From: Euryarchaeota archaeon
GTDB taxonomy: Archaea; Thermoplasmatota; SW-10-69-26; JACQPN01
Assembly: GCA_016207515.1 (NCBI GenBank)
Contig: JACQPN010000022.1
Coordinates: 1-64,000 of the forward strand
Reading direction: 5' to 3'
DNA length: 64,000 nucleotides
A model generated the notes under the pieces. The model saw only the letters and a program-made list of their open reading frames with translations. It was not told the origin of the DNA and searched no databases. Of the stretch, positions 45,990-46,766 are shown piece by piece (position 1 is the first letter of the stretch; the number at the start of each line of letters is the position of its first letter). A program made the translations under genes and the position numbers.

Positions 45990-46308
45990 TTTGCATTTTG
46001 ATGCGAATCCTCTCCTTAGAAATACCCCCACGAGATTCCCGACTCCTGAATTTCCAAGGAGAGCGCGTGGGTTTCGTGAGATTTCTTGGACAGTGACGCT
46101 CCCAAGTATGCGCCTTTTGCTCCTTAGAAACACCGAGTCCGCGAACAACGTAACTCGGTGAAAGTGAACATATTCTGTCCATTCTCCGGTCGTTCCCTCC
46201 TTGGCATTCGATGTGAACGTGGCGGCCTTGCACGCCGGGGCGTGAAGATCGTGGGTGCGCTCGTCGGTGGTCAAGTACCGCGTGTGGTCGAAGACTTGCG
46301 TAGGCTTT
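45990..46308. other. Intergenic region with a short direct repeat
   Basis: No convincing gene is seen. CTCCTTAGAAATACC at 46012-46026 recurs as CTCCTTAGAAACACC at 46120-46134, 108 bp apart, close to the period of the tandem units that follow. This may be a decayed earlier unit of that array. Confidence 0.45.
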
Positions 46309-46680
46309 CGGGGTCCGCGCTACTAGGGGCGGTTTGGGAAGGTGAACGCCGAGGCGGAGATTCGAACTTCGGCGGACTCCTTCCAGTCGTCCGCCTCGTT
46401 CTAATCTCCTCCTAGACCTTTTGGGTCCGCATCCACTTGGGGACTGTATGGGGTGGTGGACGCGGAGGAGATTCGAACTCCGGAGGCCTCCCTTCGGTCG
46501 GCCTCCTCGTTCTCATCTCCTCCTAGCCTGTTGGGGTCCGCGCTCCTTGGGGACATTCGGGGAAGGGAGCGCGGAGGAGGAGATTCGAACTCCGCCGGAC
46601 TCGCTGCGCTCGTCCGGCTCGTTCTCATCTCCTCCTAGACCTTTGGGGTCCGCGTCCACTTGGGACTGTTGGGGATGGTG
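46309..46680 (-). repeat. Three tandem ~111-bp tRNA-Ser-derived units with covarying hairpins
   Basis: Each unit carries a minus-strand tRNA T-arm (GGAGTTCGAATCTCC or close) plus a CCTCCGC-like 3' acceptor end, but no D or anticodon arm. Each also has a hairpin with 7-bp arms (46371-46395, 46482-46506, 46594-46618) whose arms differ between units yet stay complementary: GGCGGAC/GTCCGCC, GGAGGCC/GGCCTCC, GCCGGAC/GTCCGGC. A second hairpin, with 10-11 bp arms, lies at 46426-46466 (one mismatch) and 46537-46575, and a perfect one at 46649-46688 overlaps the tRNA 3' end. Unit spacing is 111-113 bp. The leftmost unit is the most decayed. Confidence 0.8.
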
Positions 46681-46683
46681 GAC

Positions 46684-46766
46684 GCGGAGGAGGAGATTCG
46701 AACTCCTGAGGACTTTCGCCCACCGGTTTTCAAGACCGGCGCCGTAGGCCGCTTGGCTACCTCCGC
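46684..46766 (-). tRNA. tRNA-Ser (anticodon UGA)
   Basis: An 83-nt class II tRNA. Acceptor GCGGAGG pairs with CCTCCGC; the D-arm is GCC...GGC; the anticodon stem CCGGT/ACCGG encloses CTTGAAA, giving anticodon TGA. A variable arm GGGC-GAAA-GTCC marks it as serine-type, and the T-arm AGGAG-TTCGAAT-CTCCT is perfect. CCA is not encoded and no intron is present. Its 3' end forms the right arm of a hairpin (46649-46688) belonging to the downstream tandem repeats. Confidence 0.96.

Follow-up and report, generated by a model that had tools for sequence, protein, structure and literature searches.

Behind the tRNA-Ser(UGA) gene of a thermoplasmatotal archaeon (lineage SW-10-69-26) lies a tandem array of short hairpin units, each of which carries an inverted and a direct copy of the 3′ tail of that tRNA gene, and copies of a tRNA gene's own tail follow roughly half of the tRNA genes of this genome. 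Here, we report an analysis of these units in the window (64,000 nt of contig JACQPN010000022.1, assembly GCA_016207515.1), across the rest of the genome and in other archaea, chiefly Halobacteria. The tail copies track the resident tRNA and end at the discriminator boundary, hairpin cores are common to many isotypes, the sense strand adopts a G.A/GNA fold and G.U pairs are not favoured. Tentatively, we favour miniature DNA elements, non-coding and tied to the 3′ ends of tRNA genes, as the identity of the units, a reading that we place just short of probable; how such elements would spread, which enzyme would move them and how conversion would maintain them are steps that we infer.

The initial annotation had described three tandem units after tRNA-Ser(UGA), and we find them on the minus strand, 109–114 nt long and at spacings of 111 and 112 (Table 1). 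In the 5′-to-3′ direction of the tRNA strand, the order within a unit is a junction hairpin, whose 5′ arm the tRNA end supplies, an inverted tail copy (which we denote X′) split by the mini-hairpin GACCCCAAAGGTC, a core hairpin and a direct tail copy (X). The pairings reported earlier can all be found: the 7-bp hairpins with compensatory changes (GCCGGAC/GTCCGGC, GGAGGCC/GGCCTCC and GGCGGAC/GTCCGCC), the second, junction hairpins, likewise with compensatory changes (TCCGCGTCCAC/GTGGACGCGGA and TCCGCGCTCC/GGAGCGCGGA), and the pairing of GGAGGAGAT with ATCTCCTCC across the first hairpin. In the core hairpins, the 7-bp stems and two inner pairs (GC/GC, CC/GG and CT/AG) vary in concert, and the triloops of units 1, 2 and 3 (GCA, GAA and GGA) sit inside a tandem G.A mismatch. 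The proposed repetition of the T-arm and acceptor 3′ end in every unit holds overall, except that the tail copy of unit 2 has lost 3 nt and that the acceptor repeat of the third copy is decayed, with CCTCGGC in place of CCTCCGC. Each of units 1–3 folds into a single long imperfect hairpin, with a fold energy that beats dinucleotide shuffles by a wide margin, whether computed for RNA (z −5.1 to −5.4) or for DNA of the tRNA strand (z −3.5 to −4.5). The first observation on this array was right, and understated.

Table 1 Features of the tRNA-Ser(UGA) array (positions in the window)
Feature	Positions	Strand	Details
tRNA-Ser(UGA), without encoded CCA	46683-46766	-	Discriminator base at 46683; ARAGORN; Rfam RF00005, 56.3 bits
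X0, tRNA gene tail (T-arm to discriminator), source of the unit copies	46683-46706	-	Sequence; copy analysis
Junction hairpin 1, TCCGCGTCCAC ... GTGGACGCGGA	46649-46688	-	5′ arm is the tRNA 3′ end; sequence
Unit 1, 113 nt	46570-46682	-	
X′ of unit 1: GCGGA + inserted mini-hairpin GACCCCAAAGGTC + AGGAGGAGATGAGAAC	46621-46653	-	Inverted tRNA-tail copy
Core hairpin of unit 1: GCCGGAC-GA-GC-GCA-GC-GA-GTCCGGC	46594-46618	-	Tandem G.A, GNA triloop
X1, direct tRNA-tail copy	46570-46593	-	23/24 positions match in ungapped comparison
Unit 2, 109 nt	46461-46569	-	X′ 46509-46541; core inner pairs CC/GG; 3-nt deletion in tail copy
Unit 3, 114 nt	46347-46460	-	X′ 46398-46430; core inner pairs CT/AG; tail copy 46347-46370 partly decayed
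Fourth unit, start only, truncated	~46297-46346	-	Decayed junction hairpin + GCGGACCCCGAAAGCCTACGC; sequence

The best genomic match to a unit lies behind tRNA-Ser(GGA), 74 kb away on the same contig, and is rebuilt to the local tRNA, with GCCGA/TCGGC for GCGGA/TCCGC and TTCAAAT for TTCGAAT. This second array (C22:120916-121268; L009 917-1269) comprises one full matched unit, one further GA hairpin and the truncated beginning of another unit, and the RNase P RNA gene (C22:122269-122702) lies roughly 1 kb beyond it. In this genome RNaseP_arch scores above its cutoff, which marks the host as an archaeon. Our genome-wide survey covered the flanks of nearly all tRNA genes (n = 50), roughly 23 of which are followed by a copy of their own tail that mostly starts 70–110 nt past the tRNA; in most of these loci the own tail is the top scorer among all tails. 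Over the first 200 nt downstream, the mean own-tail score was 23.6, versus 14.2 (s.d. 0.5) with tails permuted among loci. This excess, like that in Haloarcula rara, is larger than in all 20,000 permutations of tails among loci (p ≤ 5e-5), which rules out chance repeats. Forward own-tail copies upstream of the tRNA genes show no excess under the permutation control in this genome (mean score 13.5), nor over permuted tails in Haloarcula rara. Not every downstream copy is a full unit: behind tRNA-Phe and tRNA-Gln we find simple tandem duplications without an inverted arm. At these two loci (L069 and L076), tail and trailer are duplicated over 75 bp and roughly 110 bp, respectively, with a strong A/T-tailed hairpin and no inverted tail.

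Using an inverted T-arm pair with its arms 20–50 nt apart as the query, we scanned 84,980 species genomes. Among the matches listed (at least 80 loci), nearly all are in Halobacteria and most lie directly downstream of a tRNA in the same orientation. At least 20 of the 42 tRNAs examined in Haloarcula rara have downstream copies at an identity of at least 18/24, and own-tail copies also occur in at least dozens of other Halobacteria. The halobacterial tail copy covers 22 nt, from the T-stem GG as far as the discriminator, and its identity is 0.92–1.00 at nearly every position; identity falls to roughly 0.4–0.6 just 5′ of the copied block, and homology stops at the discriminator or one base after it. 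The copied tail, 22–24 nt with its end at the discriminator, forms a direct repeat of the tRNA 3′ end that bounds the insert. The cores belong to recurrent families, A (GTCGCA...ACCGTC), B (GTCGCGCGC...CACGTC), C and a short form, D; family A is found behind nine isotypes and family B behind ten. Complete modules of junction hairpin and core are common to Halorubrum tRNA-Asp and tRNA-Ser loci, their arms fitted to the local tRNA, and Halorubrum species differ from one another in the number and type of units. Family B cores, for example that at L101 3689-3757, have conserved C.A and T.T mismatches within otherwise covarying helices (GTCGCGCGC / GAGCACGTC).

Relatives of the present genome carry such units sporadically, behind three sampled tRNAs in one genome (G005), a single tRNA in each of two (G001 and G010) and less clearly in another (G004). 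A stringent T-arm pattern, which captures the strictest form only and misses most units even here, matched four of the 390 genomes of the phylum, this one included. A Woesearchaeota locus (L104 6376-6440) has an inverted T-arm pair behind an intron-containing tRNA-Ser, with another inner hairpin and no GA motif, hinting that the phenomenon reaches further archaea.

Covariation had been read as an argument for a structured RNA, in which the units would be transcribed as a trailer of the tRNA and would fold into hairpins or tRNA-like elements that steer tRNA 3′ processing or yield small RNAs. Several features accord with this. Folding is strand-specific, the tRNA strand giving a better RNA fold than its complement in 22 of 23 units here and in 94 of 148 in Halobacteria, with z around −5 for the units in the window; the helices contain double changes; the tail copies end at the position of the tRNase Z cut; and tRNA-like t-elements are cut by tRNase Z and RNase P in Haloferax volcanii (PMC4326828). 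Like the units, these t-elements are tRNA-derived 3′ end sequence in haloarchaea. Unlike them, the units lack an RNA-type pairing signature and are missed by the Rfam tRNA covariance model, which gave no match to them even at E ≤ 10. An Rfam 15 scan of the window and 10 archaeal loci at gathering thresholds returned the tRNAs as the sole matches, and Rfam holds no model for the unit family. A weak match to the known RNA family sX4 (E 0.018) is under the cutoff and covers tRNA-Ser itself; this candidate was rejected.

RNA helices were compared with those of the units through their wobble pairs, with G.T and A.C scored alike and isolated occurrences counted. The unit helices gave a G.T:A.C ratio of 50:80, an A.C excess that stems partly from the conserved C.A mismatch of family B and that limits the claim to G.T not being preferred. 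With the same algorithm, 30 archaeal SRP RNAs gave 50:17 (Fisher p = 1.4e-6 versus the units; SRP RNA was detected in 34 of 41 genomes searched), and the tRNA acceptor stems of the same loci gave 69:2. The signal is strong in Halobacteria; the 23 units of the present genome alone, at 3:3, are too few, and a looser threshold applied to all its trailers yields 34:39. Among 24 aligned halobacterial pairs of helix 2, there are seven perfect variants (ATCAG/CTGAT, GGAAG/CTTCC and GCCAG/CTGGC among them) and no G.U intermediates.

The inverted arm also ignores changes in its partner. At sites where the tail copy departs from the tRNA, X′ sides with the tRNA in 157 cases, with the copy in 70 and with neither in 118. 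Given that it matches the tRNA gene over the changed copy, the arm does not evolve so as to preserve pairing with its partner; instead it stems from the tRNA gene or is kept in line with it. The loops have a distinct composition: GA/GA is the tandem mismatch in 121 cases, versus 6 for the runner-up, GNA accounts for 53 of 63 triloops, and the GA/GNA motif is on the tRNA sense strand 135 times versus 8 on the opposite strand. The loops of the units are the ultra-stable, DNA-type GNA/tandem-GA mini-hairpin. As RNA, the GCGAAGC mini-hairpin is weaker than its DNA counterpart. The DNA form, d(GCGAAGC), is an extraordinarily stable hairpin with a Tm of 76.5 °C (PMC10527192). With G.U not favoured, arms that track the tRNA and loops of DNA type, the proposal that covariation argues for a structured RNA is left unsupported. 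The wobble test, on which the choice of DNA over RNA mainly rests, favours DNA, and after this test and its controls we no longer take a structured RNA for the main reading. That interpretation is weakened, and we regard it as unlikely.

The preference of the inverted arm for the tRNA over the unit copy is also what a purely local origin would leave behind. Template switching and slippage during replication at tRNA genes could have made the inverted and direct tails, with gene conversion homogenising them and neither mobility nor function involved. The order of tail, inverted tail and tail is the expected trace of fold-back and return copying, and the simple tandem duplications behind tRNA-Phe and tRNA-Gln point the same way. 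However, the same cores, their internal loops conserved, turn up behind more than one isotype and in more than one genus, and the tandem G.A and GNA motif is confined largely to one strand. On balance, we find a local origin improbable, somewhat more so than a structured RNA.

Integrase attachment sites in tRNA genes usually span the T-arm to the discriminator, and the copied block has this same extent. The tail copies might be attL/attR remnants of ordinary tRNA-integrating elements that were excised or eroded, with the hairpins as arms of the attachment sites. Integrase genes do adjoin tRNA genes in this genome, which has five tyrosine recombinase genes, at least four of them within roughly 350 bp of a tRNA gene and none of which could be linked to the units. 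Three (C5:81089, C18:3277 and C25:338297) lie within this distance of tRNA-Asn, tRNA-Gln and tRNA-Glu, in opposite orientation. These integrase-flanked tRNAs, however, are without hairpin units, and the units themselves are short, regular and present behind half of the tRNAs, which speaks against such footprints; we hold them to be very improbable. The initial annotation had offered repeated integration at the tRNA 3′ end as its alternative: repeated events at this site do fit better than RNA, but plain integration leaves the inverted copy unexplained. Elsewhere in the assembly, a bacterial-looking tRNA-Leu(tag) with an encoded CCA (C13:4507-4588; L039) adjoins an integrase gene on a 6.3-kb contig, which is possibly assembly contamination or a foreign element.

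Viral contigs were scanned for the T-arm palindrome, with 0 haloviral matches, and carriage by haloviruses was rejected; the matches were mainly bifidobacterial prophages, plus two that overlap tRNAs. In the prophages (L271, L272, L273, L274 and L276), a tyrosine integrase gene directly adjoins a near-perfect palindrome made of the T-arm and acceptor of a tRNA, a juxtaposition that agrees with integrating-element footprints and may offer a suggestive parallel to the archaeal units. Which side of the palindrome bears the full acceptor tail varies among the prophages, a hint that the attachment site can invert. One viral contig has a class-B core at its very end, next to an apparent antisense tRNA, and is uninformative.

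Other enzyme types were considered. We detected no Y1 transposase (PF01797) in this genome at 98% completeness, and a REP/RAYT system was rejected on this ground; Haloarcula rara has one such transposase. Neither genome has a Cas1 homologue, and a casposon or CRISPR-type duplication was likewise rejected. With Y1 transposase and Cas1 absent and tyrosine recombinases present, the latter are the sole tested enzyme type remaining.

The units share features with several known systems. As with tRNA-3′-end integrative elements that use tyrosine integrases, the 3′ end of the tRNA is copied in direct orientation, accretion beside the tRNA is in tandem and the tRNA gene stays intact; in contrast to these elements, the units are 75–150 bp, geneless, equipped with an inverted tail and a conserved hairpin, and found behind roughly half of tRNAs. 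Integron attC sites, which are recombined as folded single strands, are imperfect hairpins of similar length. Their R′/R″ core (GTTRRRY / RYYYAAC) differs from the T-loop arm of the units (GTTCRAA), which has C as its fourth base, and, unlike integrons, the units are without cassettes and no integron integrase was identified. REP/BIME sequences with TnpA_REP (RAYT) and other IS200/IS605-derived palindromes, among them the haloarchaeal PATEs, which are described without target duplication (PMC3119063), are, like the units, short non-coding palindromes thought to be folded single-stranded DNA. Unlike REP/BIME and PATEs, the units are tied to tRNA genes and have arms matched to the resident tRNA, in a genome that lacks the Y1 transposase. 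In Aciduliprofundum boonei, casposon insertion takes place at the tRNA-Pro 3′ end with a target duplication (PMC6614799) of 14–15 bp, compared to 22–24 in the units.

If the units are DNA elements anchored at tRNA genes, as we favour, a hairpin cassette of roughly 75–150 bp would be set immediately after the discriminator base and would end in a 22–24-bp tail copy from T-arm to discriminator, so that tail copies would part tandem cassettes as in attachment-site accretion. Folded DNA, either single-stranded or cruciform, would be the form in which the hairpin arises or is recognised. The universal T-arm sequence could serve as the bridge by which cores pass from one tRNA locus to another, with a trans-acting recombinase or homologous recombination as the means, and gene conversion with the resident tRNA gene may keep both tail copies, direct and inverted, in agreement. 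Arrays would grow through recombination between tail copies. The tyrosine recombinase genes beside tRNA genes and the T-arm palindrome of the bifidobacterial prophages also count in favour of this reading. Against it, insertion with target duplication alone yields no inverted copy, the sense strand is the better RNA fold too, and the copies behind tRNA-Phe and tRNA-Gln are plain tandem duplications.

Our literature search found no published description of these units; a subscription journal may carry an earlier one. We place the units among short palindromic, tRNA-associated mobile DNA, and there is a fair chance that they are something more distinct. A more specific proposal would make them a class of DNA hairpin cassettes, not described before, that track tRNAs in two archaeal groups and in which cores move, the direct and inverted arms are rewritten to the resident tail and the whole acts as folded DNA and not as RNA; this version we consider doubtful, if not as unlikely as the alternatives above. 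The array is also a cautionary case, in that strong covariation beside a tRNA resembles a structured RNA yet bears a DNA-type signature. Haloarcula and Halorubrum are culturable, so the question is open to direct test. In prokaryotes, mobile DNA docks mainly at tRNA genes and, if the reading is true, tiny hairpins behind roughly half of tRNA genes, copying the resident tail, would represent a new layer of mobile-DNA traffic or a new host device.
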